Shown: positions 41,473 to 61,005 of the stretch, piece by piece | How positions within the stretch are numbered: the stretch's first letter is position 1 | Layout of the letters: the number at the start of each line of letters is the position of its first letter | Assembly: GCF_016894385.1 (NCBI RefSeq) | Contig: NZ_CP069812.1 | Span: 310,001 to 374,000 of the forward strand | Reading direction: 5' to 3' | DNA length: 64,000 nt | Origin: Cupriavidus oxalaticus | GTDB taxonomy: Bacteria > Pseudomonadota > Gammaproteobacteria > Burkholderiales > Burkholderiaceae | Program-made: the position numbers and the translations under genes | The notes under the pieces: generated by a model | What the model was told of the DNA's origin: nothing | What the model saw: only the letters and a program-made list of their open reading frames with translations | The model's database searches: none

Positions 41473-42291
41473 TCAGCTGATCGCTGCTTCGCGCTGCATT
41501 GGCACCACGACTGGGTTCAGGAATGCCGGCGCCAGGCCAGTCAACTGTTCGGCAGCGGCTCGCAAGGCGGGCAGGAAGCGCTTCACTGCTTCCTCCTGCG
41601 TGACTTCGCCCGAGGGCAGGTTGACGCTGATGGATGCCACCACGTTGTGGTGCTCATCGCGCACCGGTACTGCCAGACCTGCGATGTGCTGGTCGAATTC
41701 TCCATCCACCCATGCATAGCCATCGCGCCGCACGGCAGCAAGCGCTTCAAGCAATGCCGCCTTGTCATGCACGGTGCGGTCCGTGTAGGCCCGCAGGGAC
41801 GCCTCGTCGAGAAACTGCGAGAGAAACTCCGCGGTCTGGAAGCCCAGTACCGCCCGGCCTGGCGCCGTGGCAAAGGCCGGTACATGGCTGCCAACGCCAA
41901 GTCCCAACGAGCGGATCTTGAGCGACGGAATGCGCAGGACGTACACCGCGTCGTGCCCGTCGAACACACACATGCCGCACGACTCAGTGACCTGCGTCCA
42001 CAGGGTTTCCAGGGCGCGCTGCGCGTGGCCCCAGAAGGGCAGCGAGGTCAGGTAGGTCATGCCGAGGGTAAGGATCTTCGGCGTCAGGCGAAAGCCCCGC
42101 GTTTCGGATTCGGCCGCGTAGCCAAGCTCGCAGAGCGTGAGCAGGATTCGACGCACCACGGTTCGCGGCAAGCCGGTGGTTGCCGTGATGCTGGCAACGG
42201 TGTGCGTGCCGCTGCGCCCAAGTGCCTGGATAACGGCCAATCCGCGCGCAAAGGAGCGTACGAAGCCATCGTTGTTGTCTGTCTTGGTCAT
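41473..42291 (-). CDS. IclR-family transcriptional regulator
   Basis: A 272-residue regulator. The N-terminal winged helix (residues ~10-75) has FVRSFARGLAVIQAL and TTGLPRTVVRRILLTLCELGYA, and the C-terminal effector domain has GVGSHVPAFATAPGRAVLGF and AGLAVPVRDEHHNVVASISVNL. It resembles PcaR/PobR-type regulators of aromatic catabolism. ATG 42291 faces a Bug receptor gene across a 134-bp divergent gap, so it probably controls that gene and the catabolic set behind it. It sits at the edge of the accessory region. Confidence 0.9.
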   Translation of the reverse strand: MTKTDNNDGFVRSFARGLAVIQALGRSGTHTVASITATTGLPRTVVRRILLTLCELGYAAESETRGFRLTPKILTLGMTYLTSLPFWGHAQRALETLWTQVTESCGMCVFDGHDAVYVLRIPSLKIRSLGLGVGSHVPAFATAPGRAVLGFQTAEFLSQFLDEASLRAYTDRTVHDKAALLEALAAVRRDGYAWVDGEFDQHIAGLAVPVRDEHHNVVASISVNLPSGEVTQEEAVKRFLPALRAAAEQLTGLAPAFLNPVVVPMQREAAIS

Positions 42292-42326: not shown

Positions 42327-42356
42327 TTGACATTGTAGCAAAATCGGAAGTAGAGT
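42327..42356 (+). promoter_or_regulatory. Candidate sigma-70 promoter for the first catabolic operon
   Basis: TTGACA (42327-42332) and TAGAGT (42351-42356) with an 18-bp spacer lie 70 bp before the Bug start. The -35 is perfect and the -10 matches four of six bases. Downstream, cggacat occurs twice (near 42364 and 42387), possible half-sites for the divergent IclR protein. Confidence 0.5.
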
Positions 42357-42425: not shown

Positions 42426-43412
42426 ATGAAGCGGCGTTTTCTTTGCCGGGCGCTAGCCTGCCTTGCTGTTGTGCCCACCGCGGGCCTGGCATTCGCCAAC
42501 CCGTCGCCAGACGCCTTCCAGGCCAAACGTCCTTTGCGCCTGATCGCGCCCAGTTCGCCCGGCGGCATCCTTGACCTGACCAGCCGCCTGCTCGGCAAGA
42601 CGCTGTCTGAGCAACTGGGGCAGCCCGTGGTCGTGGAGAACCTGCCGGGCGCGGGTGGCGTGATCGGGATGCAGGCCATGCTGCGCGCGGAACCGGACGG
42701 GCACACGCTGGTGATGGGCAGCCTTGGTCCCAACGCCGCCAACTATGCGTTGCACGACAAGTTGCCCTACAAGTTCGAGGACTTTGCGCCGGTGGCCCAC
42801 GTGCTGACGATGCCGGACGTCGTGGTGGTCAACCCTAAGCTGCCGGTCAAGACCATCGCAGAACTGAAGGCCTATGCCAAAACGCGCCCCAACGGCTTGT
42901 CCATGGCAGTGTCGACAAGTGGCTCTTCCGGTCATCTCGCCGGTGACCTGCTGAAGCAGCGCGCCGGCATCAATGCCGTCGACGTGATCTATCGGGGTGC
43001 ATCGCCGGCGCTGACCGACCTGGTGGCAGGGCAGGTCGATTTCATGGTGGACAACCTCGTCACCGCGCTCCCGCTGGTGCGTAGCGGCAAGCTGCGCGCG
43101 CTTGCGGTCACGACCAGCCAGCGTGCGCCGGAGCTTCCGGATACGCCGACCATGGCCGAGTCCGGCTACCGCGACTTCGACGTCTCGGTCTGGCTCGGCC
43201 TGTTCGTTTCGTCCAGGACGCCGCCCGCAGTGGTGCAGGCGTTGAACGCAGCCGTCAACAAGGCGCTGGCCGATCCCGCGCTGCGCGAGAAGCTGGCGCA
43301 GCAGGGCGGTACCGCGGCAGGCGGCTCGACGCAGCAGTTCGACAGCTTCGTGCGCGCCGAGAAGGCCCGCTGGGGACAGGTCATCAAGGACGGCAACATC
43401 AAGCCCGAATAG
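42426..43412 (+). CDS. Tripartite tricarboxylate transporter receptor (Bug family), first copy
   Basis: A 328-residue periplasmic solute-binding protein. The signal peptide (FLCRALACLAVVPTAGLAFA) is followed by the Bug core: RPLRLIAPSSPGGILDLTSRLL, VVVENLPGAGGVIGM and VDVIYRGASPALTDLVAGQVDFM. Bug proteins bind small carboxylates such as di- and tricarboxylates or aromatic acids. No TctA/TctB membrane genes are present in the window. ATG 42426 has aggaga upstream. It is first in the operon with the SDR, MaoC, ligase and dehydrogenase, which suggests that it senses or delivers the pathway substrate. Confidence 0.93.
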   Translation: MKRRFLCRALACLAVVPTAGLAFANPSPDAFQAKRPLRLIAPSSPGGILDLTSRLLGKTLSEQLGQPVVVENLPGAGGVIGMQAMLRAEPDGHTLVMGSLGPNAANYALHDKLPYKFEDFAPVAHVLTMPDVVVVNPKLPVKTIAELKAYAKTRPNGLSMAVSTSGSSGHLAGDLLKQRAGINAVDVIYRGASPALTDLVAGQVDFMVDNLVTALPLVRSGKLRALAVTTSQRAPELPDTPTMAESGYRDFDVSVWLGLFVSSRTPPAVVQALNAAVNKALADPALREKLAQQGGTAAGGSTQQFDSFVRAEKARWGQVIKDGNIKPE

Positions 43413-43462: not shown

Positions 43463-44377
43463 ATGCAAAACAGCTTCAAGGACAAAGCCATTGTCGTCAC
43501 GGGAGCCGGCAACGGCATCGGCCGTGCCATTGCCATGCTGCTGGGCGCCCAGGGCGCCCGGGTCGTGGTCAACGACCTGGGCTCCAGCGGCAGCGGCGAG
43601 GGCCGGGACGCAGGGCCGGCGCAACAGGTGGTCGACCAGATCCGCAGCGCCGGCGGGACGGCCGTGGCGAACACCGATTCGGTAGCGACTGCCGAAAGCG
43701 CCCAGGCCATCATCGATACCGCCATTCGCGAGTTCGGCCGTATCGATGGCGTGATCAACAACGCCGGCATCCTGCGCGACCGCATCTTTCACAAGATGAG
43801 CACCGCAGAATGGCAGGCGGTACTGGATGTGCACCTGGGTGGCGCCTATTTTGTCAGCCGTGCTGCGGCGCCTTATTTCAAGGAGCAGCAAAGCGGCACG
43901 TTCGTCCACATGACCTCGAGCGCCGGCTTGGTCGGCAATTTCGGCCAGGCCAACTACGCGGCCGCCAAGCTTGGCATCGTGGCGCTGTCGAAGTCGATTG
44001 CCCTGGACATGGCACGCTTCAATGTCCGCTCCAACTGCATTGCGCCATTCGCGTGGAGCCGCCTGATCGGCACGCTCCCCAGCGAAACCGAGGCTGAAAA
44101 GAAGCGCCTTGAGCGGATGCAGGCGATGAAGCCCGAACAGGTGGCCCCGGTTGCCGTGTTCCTGTCCGGCGCCGCGTCGGCTGACGTCAACGGCCAGGTG
44201 CTGGCGGTGCGCGGCAATGAGCTGATCGTGATGAGCCAGCCGCGCCCGGTGGCATCGGTGCACTGCGCCGAAGGCTGGACGCTGGAGACGCTGGCGCAGC
44301 ACGCCGTGCCGGCGGTGAGGCGCGCCTTCACGCCGCTGGAGCGCTCGCCCGAGGTGTTCTCCTGGGACCCGATCTGA
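43463..44377 (+). CDS. MFE-2-type short-chain dehydrogenase (3-hydroxyacyl-CoA dehydrogenase)
   Basis: A 304-residue SDR. The NAD loop is VVTGAGNGIGRAIA, followed by VVVNDLG and AVANTDSV, both typical of the dehydrogenase unit of peroxisomal multifunctional enzyme 2. NNAGILRDRIFHKM precedes the catalytic Ser in MTSSAGLVGNFGQ, and YAAAK (YxxxK) is complete. In MFE-2 this domain oxidises (3R)-hydroxyacyl-CoA. The following gene encodes a hydratase-2 protein, the other half of MFE-2. The start ATG 43463 lies 50 bp after the Bug stop. Confidence 0.9.
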   Translation: MQNSFKDKAIVVTGAGNGIGRAIAMLLGAQGARVVVNDLGSSGSGEGRDAGPAQQVVDQIRSAGGTAVANTDSVATAESAQAIIDTAIREFGRIDGVINNAGILRDRIFHKMSTAEWQAVLDVHLGGAYFVSRAAAPYFKEQQSGTFVHMTSSAGLVGNFGQANYAAAKLGIVALSKSIALDMARFNVRSNCIAPFAWSRLIGTLPSETEAEKKRLERMQAMKPEQVAPVAVFLSGAASADVNGQVLAVRGNELIVMSQPRPVASVHCAEGWTLETLAQHAVPAVRRAFTPLERSPEVFSWDPI

Positions 44378-44396
44378 AAACGGAGGCATCAGCGCG

Positions 44397-45296
44397 ATGG
44401 CCATCGACTATCACCGCCTGCGGTCGTGGAGTTTCTTTGACCAGACTTCACCCTATGCCGCCACCGACAACATTCGCTATGCACTGAGCCTCGGCTTCGG
44501 CACCGATCCGATGGACGAGGCGGACCTGCCCTTCGTCTTCGAGGAAGGGCTGTGCGTGGTGCCTACCTTCCTTGCCACCGTCGGCGCGCCGGGTGCGTGG
44601 GCGAGCGATCCGGGCACCGGCATCGACTGGATGCAGATCCTGCACGGCGAGCACCGAATGCGCTTCTTTGCGATGCCTGCCGCATCTGGCGCGGTACGCA
44701 GCCGGACGCGCGTCAGCCGCGTGGTGGACAAGGGTGCCGGCAAGGGCGCGCTGGTGGTCACCGAGCGGCGCATCGAGGACCAGGCCAGCGGCGAGTTGCT
44801 GGCGAGCGTCGAGCATGTGTCGTTCTGCCGGGCGGACGGCGGCTTTGCCACCGCCGCCACGCCCGGCGACACGCCGCCCGAGCCGTTGCCGGCGGTGCCG
44901 GAGCGCGCGCCGGACATGACCATGTCGATGCCGACCTGGCCATCCGCGGCCCTGCTGTACCGCCTCAACGGCGATCGCAATCCCATCCACGCGCTGCCCG
45001 CCGCCGCCCGGCAGGCGGGCTTCGGGCGGCCGATACTGCATGGCCTCTGCACCTATGGCATGGCATGCCGGGCGCTGCTGAAACAAGCCTGCGGCGGGGA
45101 TCCGTCGCGTCTGGCCAGTCTTTCGGTGCGCTTTTCATCGCCATTCGTGCCCGGTGAGACGCTGCGCGTGGAGATGTGGCGCGGCGAAGGGCAGGTCCAT
45201 TTCCGTGCGCTCGCCGATGAGCGCAATGTGGTCGTGCTGAGCCACGGTGTCGCCGACCTGCATCCGTCATCAAGGAGCCAAGATGTCCGTGATTGA
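44397..45296 (+). CDS. MaoC-type enoyl-CoA hydratase 2
   Basis: A 299-residue double-hotdog hydratase. The N-terminal half is a degenerate hotdog (FVFEEGLCVVPTFLATVG). The C-terminal half holds the hydratase-2 motif LYRLNGDRNPIHALP, with catalytic Asp and His, then AGFGRPILHGLCTYG. Hydratase 2 adds water to trans-2-enoyl-CoA to give the (3R)-hydroxy product, which suits the SDR upstream. ATG 44397 has cggagg before it. The 3' end overlaps the ligase start by 14 bp. Confidence 0.9.
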   Translation: MAIDYHRLRSWSFFDQTSPYAATDNIRYALSLGFGTDPMDEADLPFVFEEGLCVVPTFLATVGAPGAWASDPGTGIDWMQILHGEHRMRFFAMPAASGAVRSRTRVSRVVDKGAGKGALVVTERRIEDQASGELLASVEHVSFCRADGGFATAATPGDTPPEPLPAVPERAPDMTMSMPTWPSAALLYRLNGDRNPIHALPAAARQAGFGRPILHGLCTYGMACRALLKQACGGDPSRLASLSVRFSSPFVPGETLRVEMWRGEGQVHFRALADERNVVVLSHGVADLHPSSRSQDVRD

Positions 45297-46824
45297 GGAA
45301 TTCGCCCGCGCCACGCCCGACCGGGTGGCCTACCGCATGGTGCCGTCCGGCCAGGCGGTGACGTGGGCCGAACTGGAGCGGCGTTCGCGCCGGTGCGCTG
45401 CCGCACTGCTGGCCGCTGGACTACACGAGGGCGACGGTATCGCGGTGCTGCTGGAAAACCACGTCCGCTATTTCGAGATCCTTTGGGCCGCGCACCGCAT
45501 CGGGTTGTACTACACCACCATCAGCCGTCACCTGAAAGCCGACGAGGTGGAGTACATCGTGCAGGACTGCGGCGCCCGGGTGCTGTTCTGTTCGGCGCAG
45601 ACCCTTGGCGACCTGGCGCCCGGCGCGCTGGCATCGCTGCGGGTCACGCGGGTGCTGCTGGATGGCAGCGAGCCGGGCTACAGCAATTACGAAGCGTGGC
45701 TGGAGCAGATGCCGGCGGATATCACGCTGCCGCGCACGGTAGAGGGGACTGACTTTTCGTACTCGTCCGGCACCACAGGGCGGCCGAAGGGTATCAAGCG
45801 TCCGCTGCAAGGCGCAAATGGCTTCTTTCGCACCGGCGATGACCAGCGCCTGCGCTGGAAATCGTTGGACCGCGACACGGTCTATCTCTCCACCGCACCG
45901 TTCTACCATACCGCACCGGTGCGCTGGAACATCGCCACGATGATGGCCGGCGGCACATCGATCCTGATGGAGAAGTTCGAGCCGCTGGCGGCGCTTGATG
46001 CGATCGAGCGCTACGGCGTGACCCATAGCCAGTGGGTCCCCACGATGTTCGTGCGCCTGCTGCGCCTGAGCGCGGCGGAGCGCGACCGCTTCGACCTCTC
46101 GGCCATGCGCTATGCAATCCATGCTGCCGCGCCGTGTCCGGTTTCAGTCAAGCAGCAGATGATCGACTGGTGGGGGCCGATCCTCTATGAGTTCTACAGC
46201 GGCACCGAACTGGTGGGGCGCACGTCGCTGGACTCTGCGGAATGGCTCGCGCACAAGGGCTCGGTCGGTCGTCCCGAGTTCGGACAGGTACATATCGTCG
46301 GCGACGATGGCACGGAGGTACCGCAGGGCCAGACCGGGGTCGTCTACTTCTCCGGCGGCGGGCCCTTTACCTACCACAATGATCCCGAGAAGACCAGGCA
46401 GGCCTACAACAGTCGTGGTTGGGCCACCTATGGAGACATCGGCCATGTCGATGCCGACGGCTTCCTCTACCTGACGGACCGCCTTGCCAACACCATCGTC
46501 TCGGGCGGCGTCAACATCTATCCGCAGGAATCCGAGGACCTGCTGATGAGCCATCCGGCAGTCTTCGACGTGGCGGTGGTCGGCGTGCCGAACACCGAGT
46601 TTGGCGAGGAAGTGAAGGCGGTGGTCCAGCTGCACGAGCCCGGACGGGCGTCGCCGGCCCTTGCCGAAGAACTGATCGCGCTTTGCCGCAGCAGGATCTC
46701 GCCGATCAAATGCCCGCGCTCCGTCGACTTCGTCACGGCGCTGCCGCGCACCGAAACCGGCAAGCTGCTCAAGCGCGCCGTCAAGGCCAGCTACTGGCCA
46801 ACCGAAAACCGAATCGCGCATTGA
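45283..46824 (+). CDS. Acyl-CoA synthetase (ANL superfamily)
   Basis: A 513-residue ligase that activates a carboxylic acid with ATP and CoA. The P-loop is YSSGTTGRPKGIKRP, and the aromatic/adenine motif is YEFYSGTELVG. YGDIGHVDADGFLYLTDRL contains the ribose-binding Asp, and the C-terminal lysine is in TETGKLLKRAVK. It resembles ligases for steroid side-chain or bulky cyclic acids more than long-chain FadD, judged by length and the GIKRPL extension. The start at ATG 45283 has aaggag; GTG 45247 is less likely. The substrate is not deducible. Confidence 0.9.
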   Translation: MSVIEEFARATPDRVAYRMVPSGQAVTWAELERRSRRCAAALLAAGLHEGDGIAVLLENHVRYFEILWAAHRIGLYYTTISRHLKADEVEYIVQDCGARVLFCSAQTLGDLAPGALASLRVTRVLLDGSEPGYSNYEAWLEQMPADITLPRTVEGTDFSYSSGTTGRPKGIKRPLQGANGFFRTGDDQRLRWKSLDRDTVYLSTAPFYHTAPVRWNIATMMAGGTSILMEKFEPLAALDAIERYGVTHSQWVPTMFVRLLRLSAAERDRFDLSAMRYAIHAAAPCPVSVKQQMIDWWGPILYEFYSGTELVGRTSLDSAEWLAHKGSVGRPEFGQVHIVGDDGTEVPQGQTGVVYFSGGGPFTYHNDPEKTRQAYNSRGWATYGDIGHVDADGFLYLTDRLANTIVSGGVNIYPQESEDLLMSHPAVFDVAVVGVPNTEFGEEVKAVVQLHEPGRASPALAEELIALCRSRISPIKCPRSVDFVTALPRTETGKLLKRAVKASYWPTENRIAH

Positions 46825-46838
46825 GCGCGCCCGATGCC

Positions 46839-47999
46839 ATGTCCCGACAAGAATCCAGCTACCATGCGCCGCGCAAGATGTTCACGCCGGAGCACGAGAT
46901 GTATCGCGACAGCGTCGCCCGTTTCCTGGCCGACAAGGTCATGCCCGACCACGCAACCTGGGAGGAGGCAGGCCTGGTGCCGCGCGACCTGTGGCGCGAT
47001 GCCGGCGCCCATGGCCTGCTGTGCCCCGGCTTGCCCGAAGCCTGGGGCGGGGCCGGCGGCGACTTCCTGCACAGCGCCATCGTGGTCGAAGAAATCGCTC
47101 GGGCCCTGGCCAGCGGCGTGACCGGGTTCACCACGCACTCGGAGAACGTCGCGCCGTATTTGCTGGAGTTTGGCACCGAGGCGCAGAAGCGTGAGTTCCT
47201 GCCGCGCATGGCCAGCGGCGATGTAGTTGGCTCGATTGCGATGACTGAGCCGGGGGCGGGCAGCGACCTGAAGGCCATCCGTACCAGCGCCGTCAAGGTC
47301 GAAGGGGGGTACAGGGTCAACGGCCAGAAGACCTTTATCACCAACGGCTACCACGCCGACCGGGTGCTGGTGTTTGCCAAGACCGATCCTGCAGCCGGTG
47401 CGCGCGGCATCAGCCTGTTCTGGATCGACACTACCAGCCCAGGATTCAGCCGCGGCCGCTTGCTGGACAAGGTCGGCCAGAAGGCTCAGGACACCGCCGA
47501 ACTTTTCTTCGAAGACGTCTATGTGCCGGACGACATGCTGGTCGGCGAGCGCAATGCCGGCTTTGGCTACGCCATGAGCGGCCTGGTGCGCGAGCGCCTG
47601 CTGATCGCCCTGCGTTGCGCCGTGGCGCTGGAGGTGGCGCTTGAATGGACCATCGCGCATGTCAAGGAACGCCGCGCCTTCGACAAGGCGTTGATCGAGA
47701 ATCAGTTCATCCGCTTCCGCCTGGCCGAAATCAAGACGCATGCATGCGCCACGCGTGCTTTCGTCGATAGCTGCCTCGAACAATACCTCGCCGGCACGCT
47801 GACGCCGGATGGCGCCGCCATGGCCAAGTTCTGGGCTGGCGAGGCCACGCGCGCCATCGACGACCTGATGCAGTTCTTCGGCGGCTACGGCTATATGCGC
47901 GAGTACCCCATTGCCCGTGCCTACACCGACGTGCGCCCGAACCGCATCTACGGCGGTTCGGCCGAAATCATGCGTGAAGTCATTGCGCGTGCACTCTGA
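46839..47999 (+). CDS. Acyl-CoA dehydrogenase, first copy
   Basis: A 386-residue FAD enzyme for alpha,beta-desaturation of acyl-CoA. Seen are AMTEPGAGSDLKAIRTSA, the flavin stretch FFEDVYVPDDMLVG, and the C-terminal FFGGYGYMREYPIARAYTDVRPNRIYGG. The residue in YGGSAEI that is Glu in short/medium-chain enzymes is Gly here, so the catalytic base is presumably elsewhere, as in isovaleryl- and long-chain dehydrogenases. It follows the ligase by 14 bp. Confidence 0.93.
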   Translation: MSRQESSYHAPRKMFTPEHEMYRDSVARFLADKVMPDHATWEEAGLVPRDLWRDAGAHGLLCPGLPEAWGGAGGDFLHSAIVVEEIARALASGVTGFTTHSENVAPYLLEFGTEAQKREFLPRMASGDVVGSIAMTEPGAGSDLKAIRTSAVKVEGGYRVNGQKTFITNGYHADRVLVFAKTDPAAGARGISLFWIDTTSPGFSRGRLLDKVGQKAQDTAELFFEDVYVPDDMLVGERNAGFGYAMSGLVRERLLIALRCAVALEVALEWTIAHVKERRAFDKALIENQFIRFRLAEIKTHACATRAFVDSCLEQYLAGTLTPDGAAMAKFWAGEATRAIDDLMQFFGGYGYMREYPIARAYTDVRPNRIYGGSAEIMREVIARAL

Positions 48000-48007
48000 G
48001 ACTCACC

Positions 48008-49168
48008 ATGACCAAGAACCTTTCCCGCTCTGTCGCCATTGTCGGCGCCGCGGAATCCGACCTGGGCAAGGTGCCCGGCAAGACCGCGCTGGAATTGCAG
48101 GCGCAGGCCGCGCGGCTGGCCCTGCACGATGCGGGGCTGTCGCTGCGCGATGTCGATGCCGTCTTTGCCCACACCGATGACCGCTTTGCCACCGTGCAGC
48201 TGGCCGAGTACCTTGGTATCCGGCCAGGGTACGTCGATTCCAGCAATGTCGGCGGCATGTCCAACCTGATGCACATCCGCCACGCGATGGCGGCCATTGC
48301 CGCGGGCATGTGCTCGGTGGCACTGGTGACCTATGGCAGCACGCAACTGTCCGATGGCTCGCGCAAGAGCGGCGCCGTTGCGGCGGATACGGCGGACTCG
48401 CCGCGCGGCCAGTTCATCGCGCCTTATGGCCAGCTCAGCCCGATCGGCTACTACGCCATGGTGGCCCAGTTGCACATGCATCGCTACGGCACCACGTCCA
48501 GGGATCTGGCCGAGGTGGCAGTGGCGGCGCGCCGCTGGGCGCAGCTGAATCCGAAGGCGTACCGGCGCGAGGAAACCAGCATCGAGGAAGTCATGGCGTC
48601 GCCTGTGATTGCATCGCCGCTGCGTGCGCGCGACTGCTGTCTGGTCACGGATGGCGGCGGCGCGCTGGTCATCACCTCCGCCGATCGTGCCCGGGATCTG
48701 AAGTCGAAGCCGATCTATGTGATGGGCGCAGCCGAGACGTTCTCGCACCACTACACGCCGTTCAGTACGGCCGACTGGCTGGACACGCGCGTCGCCGAGA
48801 CCGCGGACGAAGCATTCCACATGGCCGGTGTCACGCGCGCCGACATCGACGTGGTGCAGATCTATGACCACTTCACCATCGGTGTGATCCAGTCGCTGGA
48901 GGAGCTGGGCTTCTGCAAGCGGGGCGAGGGCGGCGCCTTCGTCGCCGACGGCGCACTGGGCCCGGGTGGCCGCTTCCCCATCAACACCTCGGGCGGCGGT
49001 CTCTCCTACGGCCATCCAGGCATGTTCGGCATGTTCGTGCTGATCGAGGCCGTGCGCCAGTTGCGCGGCGAATGCGGCGAGCGGCAATTGCCCGGCGCCG
49101 AGCTGGCGCTGTGCCATGCGCCCGGACTGGTCTTTTCCTGCAACACCACCATGATCCTCGGAGTCTGA
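48008..49168 (+). CDS. SCP2-type thiolase-like protein lacking the nucleophilic Cys (thiolase or aldolase)
   Basis: A 386-residue protein with a thiolase fold of the lipid-transfer/SCPx group. The thiolase nucleophile in NxxC(A/S)SG is replaced: residues 80-86 read NVGGMSN. The His region is kept in NTSGGGLSYGHPGMFGM (His near 339), and the C-terminus has ALCHAPGLVFSCNTTMIL. Cys-less members paired with a DUF35 protein include steroid side-chain aldolases (Ltp2 type), so carbon-carbon cleavage by retro-aldol is an alternative to thiolysis. It begins 8 bp after the dehydrogenase and ends 3 bp before its DUF35 partner. Confidence 0.88.
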   Translation: MTKNLSRSVAIVGAAESDLGKVPGKTALELQAQAARLALHDAGLSLRDVDAVFAHTDDRFATVQLAEYLGIRPGYVDSSNVGGMSNLMHIRHAMAAIAAGMCSVALVTYGSTQLSDGSRKSGAVAADTADSPRGQFIAPYGQLSPIGYYAMVAQLHMHRYGTTSRDLAEVAVAARRWAQLNPKAYRREETSIEEVMASPVIASPLRARDCCLVTDGGGALVITSADRARDLKSKPIYVMGAAETFSHHYTPFSTADWLDTRVAETADEAFHMAGVTRADIDVVQIYDHFTIGVIQSLEELGFCKRGEGGAFVADGALGPGGRFPINTSGGGLSYGHPGMFGMFVLIEAVRQLRGECGERQLPGAELALCHAPGLVFSCNTTMILGV

Positions 49169-49171
49169 AGC

Positions 49172-49582
49172 ATGAGCGAAGCACAACGTCCCCTGCCGCG
49201 TCCCACCGAGATCACCGACGGCTACTGGCGGGCCGCCGCGCAGGGGCGGCTCGTAGTGCAGGGCTGTCGCGCCTGCGGCCACCGCCAGTTCTATCCGCGC
49301 ACGCTGTGCCTTGCCTGCGAATCGGACCAGGTCGACTGGAGCGAGGTTTCCGGCTTCGGCTCGATCTACACCTTTACCATCAACCATCGCGCCCCCAATG
49401 CTTTCATGAAGGCGCGGCTGCCGTACGCCGTTGCCATTGTCGAACTGGATGAAGGGGTGCGCATGATGGCGAACATCCTCAATGCTCCGCCCGAGACAAT
49501 CGCCATCGGCAAGCGGGTGCGCGTGGTGTTCGAGCAGGCTGGCGACGGGGTCAGCTTGCCGCAGTTCGAGCTGTTCGACTGA
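49172..49582 (+). CDS. DUF35 zinc-ribbon / OB-fold protein, thiolase partner
   Basis: A 136-residue protein. The rubredoxin-like zinc ribbon has Cys32, Cys35, Cys46 and Cys49 in GCRACGHRQFYPRTLCLACE, and an OB fold follows (GFGSIYTFTINHRAP; VRVVFEQAGDGVSLPQFELF). Such proteins are obligate partners of SCP2-type thiolases/aldolases and help to form the active-site entrance. It is located immediately after the thiolase-like gene. Confidence 0.93.
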   Translation: MSEAQRPLPRPTEITDGYWRAAAQGRLVVQGCRACGHRQFYPRTLCLACESDQVDWSEVSGFGSIYTFTINHRAPNAFMKARLPYAVAIVELDEGVRMMANILNAPPETIAIGKRVRVVFEQAGDGVSLPQFELFD

Positions 49583-49638
49583 CCATATCCTGCCATGGGG
49601 AACACCATGCCCGTCATGCCAAATCAGGGGAATCGTCC

Positions 49639-50754
49639 ATGCTTTCCGGTGTAAAAGTTGTCGAGATTGGCGGAATCGGCCCAGGCCCGTTCTGTGCAAT
49701 GCATCTTGCCGATCTCGGCGCCGATGTGATCGCCGTGGAACGCGCGGTGCCGGCCAACGGCGCACCGCCGTCCACGGAAGGCCATGTGCTGAACCGGGGC
49801 AAGCGCTCGGTGGTTGCCGACCTGAAGACGGCCGCGGGGCGCGAGCTGGTGCTGGCGCTGGTCCAGGATGCCGACGGCCTGATCGAAGGCATGCGCCCAG
49901 GCGTGATGGAGCGGCTGGGCCTGGGCCCCGAAGCCTGCCTGGCACGCAATCCCCGCCTGGTCTACGGGCGCATGACGGGCTGGGGGCAGAGCGGGCCGCT
50001 GGCGCGGGCCGCGGGACATGACAACAACTATATCTCGCTTTCCGGCGCGCTTTACTACCACGGCACGCCGGCAGAGCCGCCATCGTCGGCCATTACCGTG
50101 GTGGGCGACGTTGGCGGCGGGGCACTGTACCTGGCGGTGGGGCTGCTGTCGGGCATCCTTAACGCCCGCGTTACCGGCAAGGGTACCGTGGTCGACGCAT
50201 CGATCGTCGACGGCTCGGCCCATATGATGCAGTTGCTGTTGTCCACGCGACGGAAGGGCTATATCAGCGGCGCGCGCGGCAACAATATCCACGATGCTTC
50301 GCACTTCTACTCGACCTACCGATGCGCGGACGGCGGCTTCGTCACGCTCGGCGCGATCGAGCCGCAGTTCTACGCGCTATTGCTGGAAAAGCTGGGCCTG
50401 GCGGAGGACCCGCGTTTTGCCCGGCAATGGGACCGGGAGCGTTGGCCGGAGCTGCATCGGCACTTCGAAGAACTCTTTGCCACCAGGACGCGCGCGCAAT
50501 GGTGCTCGCTATTGGAGAACACCGACGTCTGCTTCGGTCCGGTGCTGAGCCCTGAAGAGGCTGCCGCGCATCCGCACCTGGCTGCGCGAGGCGTCTACTT
50601 CGAAGCGGAGGGCCAGCTGCAGGCCGCGCCCGCGCCGCGGTTCGACGGCAAGGCCAGGACGGTCGGCGCGATCCCGCTGCGGGGCCAGCACACCGGCGAG
50701 ATCATGGCCGCGATAGACGCCGGCCACGCCGGCGGCGCCTGGAAGACTGCCTGA
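49639..50754 (+). CDS. Alpha-methylacyl-CoA racemase (CaiB/BaiF family)
   Basis: A 371-residue enzyme that interconverts (2R)- and (2S)-2-methylacyl-CoA. All three residues of the mycobacterial racemase are at matching places: His127 (AAGHDNNYISLSG), Asp157 (VVGDVGGGA) and Glu241 (GAIEPQFYALLL). The N-terminal GVKVVEIGGIGPGPFCAMHLADLGA is family typical. CoA-transferases of this family use an Asp near 169 instead, so racemase is the better call. It is last in the first catabolic set, 56 bp after the DUF35 gene. Confidence 0.9.
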   Translation: MLSGVKVVEIGGIGPGPFCAMHLADLGADVIAVERAVPANGAPPSTEGHVLNRGKRSVVADLKTAAGRELVLALVQDADGLIEGMRPGVMERLGLGPEACLARNPRLVYGRMTGWGQSGPLARAAGHDNNYISLSGALYYHGTPAEPPSSAITVVGDVGGGALYLAVGLLSGILNARVTGKGTVVDASIVDGSAHMMQLLLSTRRKGYISGARGNNIHDASHFYSTYRCADGGFVTLGAIEPQFYALLLEKLGLAEDPRFARQWDRERWPELHRHFEELFATRTRAQWCSLLENTDVCFGPVLSPEEAAAHPHLAARGVYFEAEGQLQAAPAPRFDGKARTVGAIPLRGQHTGEIMAAIDAGHAGGAWKTA

Positions 50755-51078
50755 CGCTTGCCGGTGCATTGGCGGCATTGCAGCAATCGCAATGCCGCTT
50801 GAGGCCGGGATCGTCTCCCGTCGCCGCTGTCCGGGCGATTCACTGCCTGCGTAGTTCCGCCTGCACACCACGAACACACCTTTCACGGCCACCTGAGCCG
50901 GCAGGAGGTGTGCGCCTGGTCGTCGCTCCCGGATATGGCGTCTACACATAAGAGTCTCTTATCAAATCCGGAGAGATTTCTAACTGGAACTGCCGGCGCG
51001 GGCAGGCCATCATCCAGCCATCAGACCGGCTTCGAACCCTCGTACCAGCCAGCAACAGCATGGCCATAAAGGCAGAAG
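50755..51078. other. Gap between the two catabolic sets (324 bp) with an operator-like palindrome
   Basis: No gene is seen. The only marked structure is the palindrome at 50948-50962. The lower-GC stretch around it is a plausible promoter region for the carboxylase set. Confidence 0.6.
50948..50962. promoter_or_regulatory. Perfect 15-bp inverted repeat, candidate operator
   Basis: ATAAGAG-T-CTCTTAT, seven base pairs per arm and a central base, 117 bp before the carboxyltransferase gene. A regulator dimer of TetR, GntR or LysR type could bind it. No U tract follows, so it is not a terminator. Confidence 0.6.
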
Positions 51079-52716
51079 ATGGACGAAAACAATTTCACGC
51101 AAGAGGCAAGGATTCCGGGTGCACGTTCTACGGCATCCGCAACCGAACGTAACCGCGCGCACATGTTGGCGATGCTGAGCCAGGTGCGCGACCTGGAGCA
51201 ACGCACGGTCAGCAAGTCGGCAACAGCGGCAGACGCATTCCATGCGCGCGGCAAGCTGCTGCCGCGGGAGCGGCTCGCGCACCTGCTGGACGCCGACCGT
51301 CCGTTCTTCGAACTCATGACCCTGTGCGGCTATTGCGGGATCGAGAATCCGGATCCGGCCACGAGCGTACCGGGTGCGGCACTCATTGTCGGCATCGGCT
51401 TCATCGAAGGCGTGCGTTGCATGATCGCCGTGAACGATTCCGGCATCAGCGCCGGTGCAATGCAGGCGCTGACCGGCCAGAAGCTGATTCGCGCGCAGGA
51501 AATTGCCCTCGCCCAGAAACTGCCTTTTGTCCAGTTGGTGGAAAGCGCGGGCGGCAACCTGCGCAAGTATCGGGTCGAACGCTTTGTCGTGGGTGGCGGT
51601 ATGTTCTACAACCTGGCCCGGCTGTCCGCAGCCGGCGTTCCGGTCGTGTCGCTCATCCATGGATCTTCGGCCGCCGGGGGCGCCTACCTGCCGGGGCTGT
51701 CCGACCATGTCATCATGGTTCGGCGCCAGGCTCATGCGTACCTCGCCGGACCCTCACTGCTGCGCGCCGCGACAGGCGAAGAGGCCACCGACGAGGAGCT
51801 CGGTGGCGCCGACATGCACGCCAGCGTCTCGGGCCTCGCCGACCACGTGGCCGACAACGACCTCGATGGCATTGCCCGCCTGCGCGAAGTGATGGACACG
51901 ATCGGCTGGCGCGAGGCACCGGGCGGCGAGAGCTGGGACGAGCCGCTCGAGCCTGCCGAGGATCTGCTGGAACTGATGCCGGCCGACACCCGGACGCCGG
52001 TCGACATGCGCGAAGTGATTGCGCGCATTGTCGATGGATCGCGCTTCAGGGAGTTCAAGGCGATGTATGGGGTCCATACGGTCTGCGGCCACGCCCGCAT
52101 CCAGGGACACGACGTGGGGATTCTGACGAACAACGGGCCGCTCGACTGCGACGGATCCACCAAGGCGGCGCAATTCATCCAGTCGTGCGTCCAGTTGGGC
52201 CGGCCGCTTATCTTCCTGCAGAACATCACCGGCTTCATGGTCGGGCGCGAGCATGAGCAGGCAGGAATGATCAAGCACGGCGCGAAGCTGATCCAGGCGC
52301 TGTCCAATGCGCCGGTGCCGCGCCTGACCGTGTTGTGCGGCTCGTCCTTCGGTGCCGGCAACTATGGCATGTGCGGCCGCGCGTTTCGCCCGGACTTTCT
52401 TTTCTCGTGGCCGAATGCGCGCACTGCCGTCATGGGCGGCGAGCAGGCCGCCATGACCATGCGCCTGGTCGCCGAGAACGCCGCGCGCCGCAGCGGGCGC
52501 CCCGTCGACGAACCGGCGATAGCAGCCGAGAGCCGCGACATCGTCGCCACGTTTGAACGCCAGTCCAGTGCGATCCACACCAGCAGCATGCTGCTCGATG
52601 ACGGGATCATCGACCCCAGGGACACGCGCTCGTGGCTGGGCATGGCGCTCGCCACGGTGGCACAGGCCAGGCACCGCGCCGTGCAGCCGATGCAGTTCGG
52701 CGTCGCCCGCCTCTAG
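51079..52716 (+). CDS. Acyl-CoA carboxylase carboxyltransferase (beta) subunit
   Basis: A 545-residue carboxyltransferase of the methylcrotonyl/geranyl-CoA carboxylase type. The N-domain has HARGKLLPRERLAHLLDADRPFFEL, VQLVESAGGNLR and HGSSAAGGAYLPGL. The C-domain has LQNITGFMVGREHEQAGMIKHG and SSFGAGNYGMCGRAFRPDFLF, ending WPNARTAVMGGEQAA. It transfers CO2 from biotin to a branched unsaturated acyl-CoA. ATG 51079 has a weak site (aaaggcag). Its alpha partner is two genes downstream, with a dehydrogenase between, as in Atu and Liu clusters. Confidence 0.93.
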   Translation: MDENNFTQEARIPGARSTASATERNRAHMLAMLSQVRDLEQRTVSKSATAADAFHARGKLLPRERLAHLLDADRPFFELMTLCGYCGIENPDPATSVPGAALIVGIGFIEGVRCMIAVNDSGISAGAMQALTGQKLIRAQEIALAQKLPFVQLVESAGGNLRKYRVERFVVGGGMFYNLARLSAAGVPVVSLIHGSSAAGGAYLPGLSDHVIMVRRQAHAYLAGPSLLRAATGEEATDEELGGADMHASVSGLADHVADNDLDGIARLREVMDTIGWREAPGGESWDEPLEPAEDLLELMPADTRTPVDMREVIARIVDGSRFREFKAMYGVHTVCGHARIQGHDVGILTNNGPLDCDGSTKAAQFIQSCVQLGRPLIFLQNITGFMVGREHEQAGMIKHGAKLIQALSNAPVPRLTVLCGSSFGAGNYGMCGRAFRPDFLFSWPNARTAVMGGEQAAMTMRLVAENAARRSGRPVDEPAIAAESRDIVATFERQSSAIHTSSMLLDDGIIDPRDTRSWLGMALATVAQARHRAVQPMQFGVARL

Positions 52717-52805
52717 CCACAACGGCGGCTGCGCGCCGCCTGTGGCCGCGTGCCTGGCAGGCTGCCTGCGCCCCATCCCTTCGACAACACAAGGAGACAC
52801 CAACC

Positions 52806-53972
52806 ATGATGACCCCCGAACACATCGCGCTGCAGGACAGCGTGCGCAGGCTGATCGACCGGGAGATCGAACCCTTTGTCGAGAAGTGGGAGGCTGACGA
52901 AATCTTCCCCGCGCACGAAGTGTTCAAGAAGCTCGGCTCGGCGGGCTATCTCGGCGTGAACAAGCCCGTGGAATTCGGCGGCATGGGGCTGGACTACTCC
53001 TACGAGATCGCATTCTGCGAGGCCATCGGCGGCATCAGCGCGGGCGGCGTCGGCATGGCCATCGCCGTGCAGACCGACATGGCCACGCCGGCGCTGGCAC
53101 GATTCGGCTCGGACGAGTTGCGGGAGACCTTTCTCAAGCCAACCGTCGCGGGAGATTTCGTGGTGTGCCTGGGCGTGTCCGAAGCCGGGGCCGGTTCGGA
53201 CGTGGCATCGCTGAAGACCACGGCGCGCAAGGATGGCTCCGACTATGTGATCAACGGCTCCAAGATGTGGATCACGAGCGGGCTGCAGGCCGACTGGATG
53301 TGCCTGCTGGCGAATACCAGCGAGGGCGATGTCCACCGCAACAAGTCGCTGATCTGCCTGCCGCTGAGGGAGAACGGTAAGCTGCGTCCCGGCATCACGA
53401 TGAACAAGATCAAGAAGGTCGGCATGTGGTCTTCCGATACCGCCCAGGTATTCTTCGACGACGTCCGGGTGCCCCAGCGCTATCGCATCGGGGAAGAAGG
53501 CATGGGCTTCACCTACCAGATGCGCCAGTTCCAGGAAGAGCGCCTCAGCGGCGCCACCCGCCGGGTCACCGCGCTCACCAATGCGATCAACGAGACCATC
53601 GAGTACACGCGTGAGCGCAAGGCGTTCGGGCGTTCGATCCTGGACAACCAGGCGGTCCATTTCCGGCTGGCCGAGCTGAAGACGGAAGTCGAACTGCTGC
53701 GATCCGTCATCTACCGCGCGGCCCAGGTGCATATGTCCGGCGGCGACATGACCGAGCTGGCCTCCATGGCCAAGCTCAAGGCCGGCCGCCTGTGCCGGGA
53801 GGTGACCGACTCCTGCCTGCAGTACTGGGGAGGCATGGGTTTCACCTGGGACAACCGCGTGTCGCGCGCCTGGCGCGACCTGCGCCTGATCTCCATCGGC
53901 GGCGGCGCCGACGAGATCATGCTGACCATCATCTGCAAGCACATGGGAATCCTGCCGAAGCGATCGGCCTGA
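52806..53972 (+). CDS. Acyl-CoA dehydrogenase, AtuD-like
   Basis: A 388-residue dehydrogenase. The start MMTPEHIALQDSVRRLIDREI and EIFPAHEVFKKLGSAGYLGVNKP resemble citronellyl-CoA dehydrogenases, as does the end RDLRLISIGGGADEIMLTII. GVSEAGAGSDVASLKTTA and FFDDVRVPQRYRIGEEGMGF are standard. As in the other dehydrogenase, the YEG Glu is absent. ATG 52806 has aaggagac. It lies 89 bp after the carboxyltransferase gene and 15 bp before the biotin carboxylase gene. Confidence 0.91.
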   Translation: MMTPEHIALQDSVRRLIDREIEPFVEKWEADEIFPAHEVFKKLGSAGYLGVNKPVEFGGMGLDYSYEIAFCEAIGGISAGGVGMAIAVQTDMATPALARFGSDELRETFLKPTVAGDFVVCLGVSEAGAGSDVASLKTTARKDGSDYVINGSKMWITSGLQADWMCLLANTSEGDVHRNKSLICLPLRENGKLRPGITMNKIKKVGMWSSDTAQVFFDDVRVPQRYRIGEEGMGFTYQMRQFQEERLSGATRRVTALTNAINETIEYTRERKAFGRSILDNQAVHFRLAELKTEVELLRSVIYRAAQVHMSGGDMTELASMAKLKAGRLCREVTDSCLQYWGGMGFTWDNRVSRAWRDLRLISIGGGADEIMLTIICKHMGILPKRSA

Positions 53973-53987
53973 TCAGGGGAGAATCAC

Positions 53988-56090
53988 ATGCGCTTCGACA
54001 CATTGCTTGTCGCCAACCGGGGAGAAATCGCACTGCGGGTCCTGCGCAGCGCGCGCAAGCTCGGCTTGCGCACGGTTGCCGTCTATTCGGACGCCGATGC
54101 CGGCAGCCGTCACGTGCGCGAGGCCGATCTGGCCGTGCGCATCGGACCGGCCGACGCCGCCCGCAGCTATCGGCATGCCCATGCGCTGATCGAGGCATGC
54201 CGGCGCACCGGCGCCCAGGCGATACATCCGGGCTACGGATTCCTCTCCGAGAACGCGGAGTTCGCGCGGGCGGTCGCCGAGGCGGGCCTGACCTTCGTGG
54301 GACCCTCGGCAGACGTCATTGCGTTGATGGGCAACAAGGCACAGGCAAAGCTGGCCATGCAAAAGGCCGGGGTGCCGACTGTGCCGGGAGAACAGGGCTG
54401 TGCCACCGACGAGGCGGCCCTCGCCGCGGTCGAGCGCATCGGCTTCCCGGTCATCCTGAAGGCCGCGGCAGGCGGGGGCGGCCGTGGCATGCGGGTCGTC
54501 CGCGACGCCACGGCCTTGCCGGCGGCGCTGCAACAGGCGCGCTCCGAGGCGGCAGGCGCGTTCGGCTCTGACGAGCTTATCATCGAGCGCGCCATCGAAC
54601 GCGGAAGACACATCGAGATCCAGGTGCTGTGCGACGAGCATGGCCGCTGCCTGCACCTCGGTGAGCGCGACTGTTCGACACAGCGGCGCTTCCAGAAGGT
54701 CATCGAGGAAGCGCCTTCGCCCGCGGTGAACGCCGAGCTGCGCCGGGAGATGGGAGAGGTCGCGGTGCGCGCCTGCGAGGCCATCGGCTACACCGGCGCC
54801 GGCACGCTCGAATTCCTGCTGGATGGAAAAGGCCGCTTCTATTTCATGGAGATGAACACGCGGCTGCAGGTCGAGCACGGCGTGACGGAGCTGGTCACCG
54901 GGCTTGACCTGGTGGAGCAGCAACTGCGCATCGCCCAGGGCGAGCCGCTCGCGTTCGGGCAGGAGGATGTGCGCATGCGCGGCCATGCCATCGAGGTACG
55001 GCTGTGTGCGGAGGATCCCGCGGCGGGCTTTCTGCCCCAGGTGGGCCGCGTCGATGTCTGGCGCCCGGCGCCCGACATCCGCGTCGACAGCGCGCTGCAC
55101 GGAGGCATGGAGATCGGTTCCGACTACGACTCGATGGTCGCGAAGATCATGTCCTGGGGCGAGACGCGTGAACAAAGCATTCACCGCCTGGTCCGTGCCT
55201 GCGAGCGCACGGCGCTGCTGGGTGTCCGAACCAACCTTGGCCTGCTCTCGCGCTGTCTGCGCCATCCGCACTTCGTGGCCGGCGAGGTCACCACGGATTT
55301 CCTGGCTGGCGAAGACATGGGCAGCCCGGCGTGGCGCGCGCAGCCGTCGGTGCATGCACGCGCCGCGGCGGCCTTGCTGCTGTCGGGCGCGGTCGGCCGC
55401 GACGCGTCCGGCATGCAGCGGCTGCCGGCTGGCCCGGCGCAAACGCGGGCGCTGTGGCTCATGGATGCGACGCACACGAGCGGCGCAGGCGCCGCGGCGC
55501 AAGGGACGGCCAGCGCGGTGGAACTGCGGCCATCGGCGGACCGGGGCGAAGTCGTCATCCGCTCCCGGCCGGGCGAACCGATCCCCGCGCGCAACGCGAC
55601 GGATGTGCCAGCGCGCGAGGCAGAGCCCGCCTGCAGCGTTGCCAATGTGCATTGGGAGCCGACCGGGAACTCGGCCGGCGGCTATGGCGGAACGCTCGGG
55701 CTTGCGGTCGATGGCGTGTACCGCCAGCTGATGTGCAGCTCGCCTCGACGCGACGAATGGTGGCTGCAGGATGGCGCGGACACGTTCGTGTTCCGGCGGC
55801 TGGCGCGCTTCGCTGCCAGCGACGGCGAATCCGTCGGCGGCAGCGTACGGGCGCCGATGAGCGGGCGCGTGGTTGCCGTCATGGTTGGCGAGGGCGACGC
55901 CGTCGAGCGCGGCCAGACTCTGGTCGTACTGGAGTCGATGAAGATGGAAATGCCCCTGGCAGCGCCGAGCACGGGGCGCATCGTGCGCCTGCTTGCCCGG
56001 GAGGGCATGCAGCTCAACGCGGGCCAGGTGCTGATCGAAGTCGGCGTGGGCGCCGAAGCGGGAAAGGTCGAAGCCGAGGGCGCGGCCTGA
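53988..56090 (+). CDS. Acyl-CoA carboxylase alpha subunit (biotin carboxylase + biotin carrier)
   Basis: A 700-residue biotin-dependent subunit. The biotin carboxylase domain (1-~450) has LLVANRGEIALRVLRSAR, the ATP loop KAAAGGGGRGMRVV and EMNTRLQVEH. The next residue is Gly (VEHGVTE) where nearly all relatives have Pro. A variable linker follows, and the biotinyl domain at the C-terminus has VLESMKMEM, in which the second Lys would carry biotin. It probably joins the beta subunit at 51079. Start ATG 53988; upstream gatcagggga. Confidence 0.94.
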   Translation: MRFDTLLVANRGEIALRVLRSARKLGLRTVAVYSDADAGSRHVREADLAVRIGPADAARSYRHAHALIEACRRTGAQAIHPGYGFLSENAEFARAVAEAGLTFVGPSADVIALMGNKAQAKLAMQKAGVPTVPGEQGCATDEAALAAVERIGFPVILKAAAGGGGRGMRVVRDATALPAALQQARSEAAGAFGSDELIIERAIERGRHIEIQVLCDEHGRCLHLGERDCSTQRRFQKVIEEAPSPAVNAELRREMGEVAVRACEAIGYTGAGTLEFLLDGKGRFYFMEMNTRLQVEHGVTELVTGLDLVEQQLRIAQGEPLAFGQEDVRMRGHAIEVRLCAEDPAAGFLPQVGRVDVWRPAPDIRVDSALHGGMEIGSDYDSMVAKIMSWGETREQSIHRLVRACERTALLGVRTNLGLLSRCLRHPHFVAGEVTTDFLAGEDMGSPAWRAQPSVHARAAAALLLSGAVGRDASGMQRLPAGPAQTRALWLMDATHTSGAGAAAQGTASAVELRPSADRGEVVIRSRPGEPIPARNATDVPAREAEPACSVANVHWEPTGNSAGGYGGTLGLAVDGVYRQLMCSSPRRDEWWLQDGADTFVFRRLARFAASDGESVGGSVRAPMSGRVVAVMVGEGDAVERGQTLVVLESMKMEMPLAAPSTGRIVRLLAREGMQLNAGQVLIEVGVGAEAGKVEAEGAA

Positions 56091-56170
56091 CCGCGCGGAA
56101 GCCGGGATGCAGAGCGGACGCGCCGGGGCACGGCCACGGGCGCATCCAGACACACTACAGGAGAGCATGA

Positions 56171-58024: not shown

Positions 58025-58074
58025 CCGGGTGGCAGGGCACTTCGCGACACACAACGAACCAGGAGACACGAGTG

Positions 58075-59124
58075 ATGCAAGCGATTTACCCATCAGCCTG
58101 CCAGGCTCAGAGCAGCGCGCGGCGGCGTCCCCCGCGACGGTATGGCGCGGCCGTGGCGATCGGCCTGGCTGCCCTCCTGTGGGGCGCCGCAGCCATTGCC
58201 CAGCCATCGCCCGCTGCCGGCACCGAACGCCTCGACAAGCCCGTGCGCATCATTGTTGCCTATGGCGCGGGCGGGGCATCGGACAGCATCGCCCGTTTCG
58301 TGGGCGACGGACTCTCCAGGCGTGCCGGAAAGCCCGTGATCGTAGAGAACAAGGCCGGTGCCGACGGCAACATCGCTGCCGAGTCCGCAGTCCGAGCCGC
58401 CACCGACGCATATACGCTGCTGGTGTCCGGTTCATCGACGCACGCGGCAAATGCCACCATCTACCGCAGACTTCCCTACGATCCTGAGGCGGACTTTACG
58501 CCGCTGGCGACAATGGCCAGCACACCGTTCGTGTTGCTCGTGAATCCCAGGCGCGTGCACGCCGCGACGTTCAGGGAGTTCCTGGCATGGGCCAGGAAGG
58601 AGAACAGTTCACTGTCCTTTGCCAGCGCCAACGTGGGCGGCCGTATCAGCGGTGAACTGTTCAAGCAACGAGCGGGCGTCAAGGCGGTCAACGTTCCTTA
58701 CAAGAACAGCAGCCAGGCCATGACGGACCTGATCGGCGGCCAGTTCGACTACTACCTGTGCGACATGGTCACGGCGCTGCCGCAGATCCAGGCTGGCACG
58801 GTGCGTGCGCTGGCGATCTCCAGCGCCGAACGCGCGCCGTCGTTACCCGATGTGCCGACGCTGGCGGAAAGCGGCTTCCCGGACTTCGACGTCAGTTCGT
58901 GGATCGCCATCTGGAGCGCCAACGCGTCGACCCCCCAGCCTGTGGCCAGGCTGTTGTCGCGCTGGATCGCGGAGACGCTCGACTCGTCCGGTGGGCGCCA
59001 GTTCCTGGTGGGCAAGGGGCTGATTCCGGCCAAGGTCGCGCCGACGCATCTGCAGGAGCTGCAGCGGCGCGACACCAGGCTTTGGGGGAAAATCATCGTC
59101 GACGCGGGGATGCAGCAGCCATGA
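58075..59124 (+). CDS. Tripartite tricarboxylate transporter receptor (Bug family), second copy
   Basis: A 349-residue periplasmic receptor. The long signal region (GAAVAIGLAALLWGAAAIAQP) follows a basic stretch (SARRRPPRRYG). The core has KPVRIIVAYGAGGASDSIARFV, VIVENKAGADGN and VNVPYKNSSQAMTDLIGGQFDYYL. ATG 58075 has aggaga; an adjacent GTG is possible. It ends the carboxylase set and is convergent with a LysR gene 14 bp away. Again there is no TctAB pair. Confidence 0.92.
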   Translation: MQAIYPSACQAQSSARRRPPRRYGAAVAIGLAALLWGAAAIAQPSPAAGTERLDKPVRIIVAYGAGGASDSIARFVGDGLSRRAGKPVIVENKAGADGNIAAESAVRAATDAYTLLVSGSSTHAANATIYRRLPYDPEADFTPLATMASTPFVLLVNPRRVHAATFREFLAWARKENSSLSFASANVGGRISGELFKQRAGVKAVNVPYKNSSQAMTDLIGGQFDYYLCDMVTALPQIQAGTVRALAISSAERAPSLPDVPTLAESGFPDFDVSSWIAIWSANASTPQPVARLLSRWIAETLDSSGGRQFLVGKGLIPAKVAPTHLQELQRRDTRLWGKIIVDAGMQQP

Positions 59125-60964: not shown

Positions 60965-61005
60965 ACAGCAAGCTTCGCACGTCAACATTCTGGAGGAAAC
61001 GAGCA

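Follow-up and report, generated by a model that had tools for sequence, protein, structure and literature searches.

Comparison with described systems

In the igr, or ChsE-ChsH-Ltp2, module (ORF40-44 of C. testosteroni, igr of M. tuberculosis), a propionyl residue is removed by a dehydrogenase, a MaoC hydratase and a DUF35-paired aldolase acting in series, as described in PMC12502768. The retro-aldolases Ltp2 and Sal are defined by a catalytic Tyr in a YDxF/Y motif and by the lack of a nucleophilic Cys (PMC12329534). Here, we analyzed a stretch of 64,000 nucleotides, termed the window, which spans positions 310001-374000 of contig 2 of a Burkholderiales-type genome with two contigs. A preliminary description had read seven genes at 43463-50754 as an operon for a 2-methyl-branched acid with the full inventory of peroxisomal branched-chain beta-oxidation. 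On balance, our results lean slightly towards a transferable unit for the catabolism of carboxylic acids with a removable C2 or C3 end, which would be cleaved off by a retro-aldol step. Among named organisms, those with the most similar operon belong to Cupriavidus, and open-access literature searches did not find it named in titles or in the first parts of abstracts.

The unit resembles the igr module in that a dehydrogenase, a MaoC hydratase and a DUF35-paired predicted aldolase are also encoded here. It differs in having a single dehydrogenase, a full hydratase-2, a stand-alone DUF35 protein and its own ligase, racemase and Bug protein, and in that its core also occurs in genomes without an HsaA-like match. 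With the peroxisomal AMACR/MFE-2/SCPx pathway it shares an AMACR-type racemase and an MFE-2-type SDR and hydratase 2, here as separate proteins, but it has no oxidase, no SCP2 domain and no canonical thiolase active site. The peroxisomal analogy thus holds for the racemase, the SDR and the hydratase, whereas the inventory is not full, since the thiolase nucleophile and the oxidase are absent.

A predicted retro-aldolase with a DUF35 partner

Families were assigned from Pfam, NCBIfam and PDB searches. The thiolase-fold protein (Thl, 48008-49168, + strand) is followed by a DUF35/ChsH2-type Zn-ribbon OB-fold protein (49172-49582, +; Pfam OB_ChsH2_C and zf-ChsH2) with two CxxC pairs. At the nucleophile position Thl carries Gly83, while an aligned paralogue from the same genome (L043) carries Cys in that column. 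In addition, Thl reads YDHF (starting at Tyr286) in place of HDCF, and the CxG motif is absent. The features of SCPx/SCP2 thiolases, i.e. the nucleophilic Cys, the HDCF-type His with CxG and the SCP2 domain, are therefore missing, and of the earlier label "SCPx-type thiolase" only the fold stands. A scan of 18 proteins revealed neither an acyl-CoA oxidase nor an SCP2 domain (Pfam SCP2 at E 0.001).

With the structures of Ltp2 and Sal (6ok1, 9myr) Thl shares the thiolase fold, the Gly at the nucleophile position, the catalytic Tyr of YDxF/Y without a nucleophilic Cys and, at the gene level, the DUF35 partner, whose gene adjoins Thl in all 30 orthologous loci considered below. The scores against these structures reached only 186-189 bits; the best match was 4u4e, which is uncharacterized. 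Thl also has His336 where they carry Tyr344/Gln352. In the printed alignments, His336 and His288 occupy the places of the second acid (Tyr344 of Ltp2, Cys304 of Sal), and neither of these acids is matched in Thl. The loop at residues 331-339 of Thl is poorly modelled. In its layout the Thl-DUF35 pair looks like the steroid side-chain retro-aldolases Ltp2 and Sal and not like SCPx. Thl is thus a predicted retro-aldolase, and the terminal step of the unit is most likely aldolytic.

Thl scored 473 against a cut-off of 421 for PRK06158, which NCBI names acetyl-CoA acetyltransferase, a score obtained for Thl alone. We tentatively propose, with slightly less than even confidence, a third clade of retro-aldolases, marked by YDxF and an HP-His, that comprises PRK06158 and the ~50% identical relatives found with DUF35 partners in Proteobacteria, Actinobacteria and Chloroflexi. 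Many non-steroid bacteria would owe to this clade an aldolytic rather than thiolytic beta-oxidation; in the present unit, AMACR and MFE-2 homologues would accompany it in a portable cassette that handles 2-methyl-branched acids. If true, retro-aldol cleavage of side chains extends far outside the steroid degraders, through a family that is routinely mis-named (acetyl-CoA acetyltransferase without the catalytic Cys), and a portable nine-gene cassette exemplifies bacterial shortening of 2-methyl-branched acids without a thiolase. The unit also offers a small system for probing the role of the DUF35 partner.

Separately, we noted a uniform but different cluster around a ~50% relative of Thl in Rhodobacteraceae-type genomes, comprising dehydrogenase-like genes, a YDSF protein, DUF35 and a CoA-transferase III (L098, L101-L103, L106-L112, L115, L117).

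Composition and borders of the unit

The seven ORFs all lie on the + strand, with the motifs, order and coordinates that had been described; orthologous loci recur, which places the arrangement beyond chance. The gaps between them are 19, -14, 53, 8, 3 and 56 bp. The first gene encodes the MFE-2-type SDR, a candidate (3R)-hydroxyacyl-CoA dehydrogenase (43463-44377; VVVNDLG, AVANTDSV) with yeast and animal MFE-2 as best PDB matches. The second encodes the hydratase-2, a MaoC protein with an MFE-2 N-terminal domain (44397-45296; GDRNPIH), in which the Asp and His of GD.N..H are kept in 26 of 26 aligned sequences. The assignment of both to the MFE-2 type was supported, as they are closest to the split halves of MFE-2; the fusion itself is absent, the two ORFs being 19 bp apart.

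The acyl-CoA ligase (ANL, AMP-binding; 45283-46824) is nearest to NCBIfam FadD4, under its cut-off. Its nearest solved relatives are a fatty-acyl-CoA synthase, a feruloyl-CoA synthetase and FadD13 (193-212 bits). The acyl-CoA dehydrogenase (46878-47999, with an alternative start at 46839) is nearest to human LCAD, with 360 bits as compared to 134 for ACX4, the best peroxisomal oxidase among the matches listed. The proposed acyl-CoA oxidase equivalent is thus a dehydrogenase. Glu at the LCAD position, Gly at the usual place and IYGG are kept in 30 of 30 aligned sequences. LCAD accepts 2-methyl-branched CoAs, and its catalytic Glu is displaced. Comparison with the closest characterized relatives, which had been suggested as a check on the substrate, points to LCAD for the dehydrogenase but yields nothing specific for the ligase.

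The last gene encodes the alpha-methylacyl-CoA racemase (49639-50754; MCR type, class-III CoA-transferase family). It scored 326 bits over 339 residues against mycobacterial MCR (1x74), and 132 against the highest-scoring family III structure that is not an MCR/FAR racemase. His127, Asp157 and Glu241 align to the same positions as the MCR triad, whose His, Asp and Glu have catalytic roles, and are kept in all six sequences compared (the window and five orthologues). The window's genome (6.7 Mb) has 50 family III CoA-transferase/racemase matches, this protein included, so class membership alone means little, and it is the score margin and the triad that count. A CoA-transferase was ruled out by these scores and residues. 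The protein is therefore clearly of the AMACR/MCR type, as the preliminary description had it, and racemisation of 2-methylacyl-CoA is predicted; in contrast to MCR, it sits in a catabolic operon.

Upstream of the SDR gene lie a Bug/TctC periplasmic binding protein gene (Bug1, 42426-43412, +; Pfam TctC, 245 bits), with a likely role in carboxylate capture, and a divergent IclR-family regulator gene (41473-42291, -). The regulator is PcaR/PcaU/PobR-like, with 239 bits below a cut-off of 285 bits. One promoter-like site, at 42327-42356, falls between these two genes. Promoter and terminator predictions were uninformative, with 2 and 9 found in comparison to 2.3 and 10.4 expected from shuffles. 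The unit limits drawn earlier consequently held at the racemase on the right but not on the left, since the IclR and Bug/TctC genes precede 43463.

A search of PLSDB plasmids returned 138 records, of which a single one exceeded 60% identity, the Cupriavidus metallidurans Ni-2 plasmid NZ_CP026546.1 (L176, 160738-191895). It carries IclR-Bug-SDR-MaoC-ligase-dehydrogenase-Thl-DUF35-racemase in the same order, at identities of 67-88%. This suggests that the natural borders of the unit are IclR and the racemase, so that it would extend two genes further upstream than the interval first described. A phage-integrase-family gene lies ~8 kb upstream of the plasmid unit, and GmtX, an integrase-family gene and GmtY lie ~1.5 kb downstream. 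The position of the nine genes between integrase and gamma-mobile-trio genes suggests that they are cargo of a mobile island.

A conserved core and a clade-specific extension

To assess conservation, genome contigs were scanned with Thl, which gave 52 loci, 29 of them at 74-97% identity (Cupriavidus, Achromobacter, Bordetella, Variovorax, Oryzisolibacter and others). A 150-genome family sample added one close orthologue from the same genus (G138, 96%), bringing the total to 30 loci. Orthologues were counted by tblastn with identity thresholds set per gene (at least 74% for Thl); the loci are related by descent, and the counts are not independent events. Gene calls in the fetched loci relied on a GC-position heuristic that missed some genes.

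Among the 30 loci, orthologues were found for DUF35 in 30, the dehydrogenase in 29, Bug1 and the ligase in 26 each, MaoC in 25 and IclR in 12. Rarer were the SDR (7), the racemase (5) and the neighboring carboxylase module (2). Three loci are truncated (L069, L072 and L076); the remaining 27 hold MaoC in 24, the ligase in 25, the SDR in 6 and the racemase in 4. When the window and the plasmid were included, eight of 29 untruncated loci had the SDR. The racemase was present in six of these eight; in all six it lies downstream of DUF35, immediately after it in five and behind a Bug-like gene in L046.

A whole-genome search of 20 genomes detected the SDR at 76% identity or more in five, and best copies of only 56-65% in the other 15. 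As a paralogue of this grade coexists with the orthologue in four of the five, the orthologue is missing from the others rather than moved. The racemase reached at least 70% in four of the 20, including C. basilensis OR16, where it lies ~15 kb downstream. One more genome has a copy of 62% at another site, and the remaining 15 do not exceed 55%. Thl is at least 84% identical wherever the SDR is present and at most 82% in untruncated loci without it. Thus, the core of the unit is Bug-MaoC-ligase-dehydrogenase-aldolase-DUF35, and the SDR and racemase mark one clade. That the seven genes are conserved together is correct for the widely kept core genes, and the SDR and racemase usually co-occur, but these two (7 and 5 of 30 loci) fall outside the core. 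Pairwise distances of Thl correlated with those of the other genes at 0.90-0.97, a value without a species-tree control that was not used as proof.

In loci of the Achromobacter/Bordetella type (e.g. L073:1-4275), divergent genes beside the core encode another SDR, common to 13 loci, together with a small MaoC, a dehydrogenase and a protein that contains ADP-forming acyl-CoA-synthetase domains. In Oryzisolibacter (L168:14520-16677) we observed a pair of paralogous SDR (65%) and MaoC (52%) genes; split MFE-2 pairs may therefore recur in other clusters. The contig L072 is binned as Desulfovibrionaceae (metagenome-assembled genome), contains the unit with a Thl 89% identical to Burkholderiales and is possibly mis-binned.

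Predicted pathway and alternative explanations

The gene set, its conservation, the fold match and the catalytic residues present or missing were read from the sequence; the reactions, with their order, stereochemistry and substrate, would be as follows. The Bug protein would capture the acid and the ligase would form its CoA ester. The AMACR-type racemase would convert (2R)- to (2S)-2-methylacyl-CoA, the LCAD-like dehydrogenase would yield the 2-enoyl-CoA, and the hydratase-2 would hydrate this to the (3R)-hydroxyacyl-CoA. The Cys-less Thl with its DUF35 partner, using Tyr286 as the base, would then perform the retro-aldol cleavage to an aldehyde or ketone and propionyl-CoA; from substrates without the 2-methyl group, acetyl-CoA would be released instead. 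A dehydrogenase, a hydratase and an aldolase without a conserved 3-hydroxyacyl dehydrogenase fit the needs of such a route. The SDR would be an accessory of the racemase-bearing clade; it may act on the product, or it may oxidize the 3-hydroxy intermediate so that a thiolase from another locus can cleave it.

A PS00687-like aldehyde dehydrogenase motif was found neither in the window nor in the 30 loci. A looser motif, run over the loci collected by then, the window excepted, also gave no match in the 30 loci. It picked three likely aldehyde dehydrogenases in other loci (L050, L061, L114), which indicates that the pattern works, and one chance-like match (L060). The product may thus be a ketone, or the aldehyde dehydrogenase may be encoded elsewhere.

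The 2-methyl substrate rests mainly on the racemase of one clade, because racemase and SDR lie outside the widely conserved core. The core could instead serve straight-chain or aromatic side chains (e.g. arylpropionates), which would yield acetyl-CoA and an (aromatic) aldehyde, with the racemase as a late addition that widens the range. The lack of the racemase in 25 of 30 loci (three of the 30 being truncated), the resemblance of the IclR regulator to the PcaR/PobR group and the feruloyl-CoA synthetase among the ligase matches are in line with this view. However, the dehydrogenase is nearest to LCAD, the racemase follows DUF35 in six of eight untruncated loci of the window's clade, and no aldehyde dehydrogenase is linked, and we regard this explanation as unlikely.

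Somewhat less probable still is a true beta-oxidation by thiolysis, the route of the preliminary description. Here, the SDR would oxidize the (3R)-hydroxyacyl-CoA, and the 3-ketoacyl-CoA would be cleaved either by Thl itself, with an unusual mechanism, or by a thiolase whose gene lies outside the operon. This view has to contend with a Thl that lacks the nucleophilic Cys and CxG and has YDHF for HDCF, and with the absence of the SDR orthologue (70% identity) from 21 of the 29 untruncated loci. Ibuprofen-type ipf genes were a further candidate, set aside on a literature search without sequence comparison.

Finally, we considered whether the unit acts on the side chains of steroids or bile acids in the manner of the igr operon, with its dehydrogenase, hydratase and Ltp2-DUF35; the trio of reactions would be the same. 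A steroid-ring-like cluster is present on the other contig of the window's genome (C1:557000-596800; L166, L171). Its HsaA-like (380 bits) and HsaC-like (299 bits) matches are both under the cut-off of 450 and a KstD-like match is also under its cut-off, while a FadD3-family ligase (768 bits) exceeds its cut-off of 657. By eye, the cluster also has probable IpdAB-like genes. HsaA-like genes at 54-100% identity occur in five of seven genomes of the SDR-bearing clade, which may thus have a steroid link. Of the 22 genomes that have the unit or its core, only six gave an HsaA-like match (E 1e-40 or better), one of them at just 30% identity; there was none in 16, of which at least one (G153) is a metagenome bin. 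The core therefore seems independent of steroid ring breakdown, and a steroid role for it is unlikely. We rejected the steroid operon as very improbable on these HsaA-like gaps, on the single-protein dehydrogenase and hydratase, as opposed to the ChsE1E2 and ChsH1H2 pairs of PMC12502768, and on the separate contigs of unit and cluster.

The neighboring carboxylase/AtuA module

After a gap of 324 bp the unit is followed by a geranyl-CoA-carboxylase-like beta subunit (carboxyltransferase, 51079-52716, +), a second acyl-CoA dehydrogenase (52806-53972, +), a biotin carboxylase/BCCP (53988-56090, +) and an AtuA-family protein with the AtuA ferredoxin-like domain (56171-58024, +; Pfam AtuA, 437 bits). 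The module (51079-59124) has its own Bug protein, and a divergent LysR gene adjoins it. Its geranyl-CoA-carboxylase-like beta subunit and AtuA recall the Atu pathway with its geranyl-CoA carboxylase (5ikl). The carboxyltransferase scored 551 bits against the geranyl-CoA carboxylase beta subunit (5ikl) and 466 against methylcrotonyl-CoA carboxylase. In geranyl-CoA carboxylase, Gly takes the place of the Phe of methylcrotonyl-CoA carboxylase, and an insertion of 3 residues is missing (PMC4673880); this insertion is also absent from the window protein in the printed alignment. The neighbor looks like a module for 3-methyl-branched (isoprenoid) acids. A scan of viral contigs with the carboxylase gave no match.

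We also considered 43463-58024 as one operon and rejected it. The carboxylase/AtuA module adjoins the unit in only two of the 30 orthologous loci besides the window, the plasmid unit stops at the racemase, and in two of 22 genomes (G155, G168) a carboxyltransferase of at least 67% identity lies on a contig other than that of the unit. The module is separate from, and independent of, the unit. Farther downstream, at 60065-62199, an enoyl-CoA hydratase and a second CoA-transferase III are located between two LysR genes.

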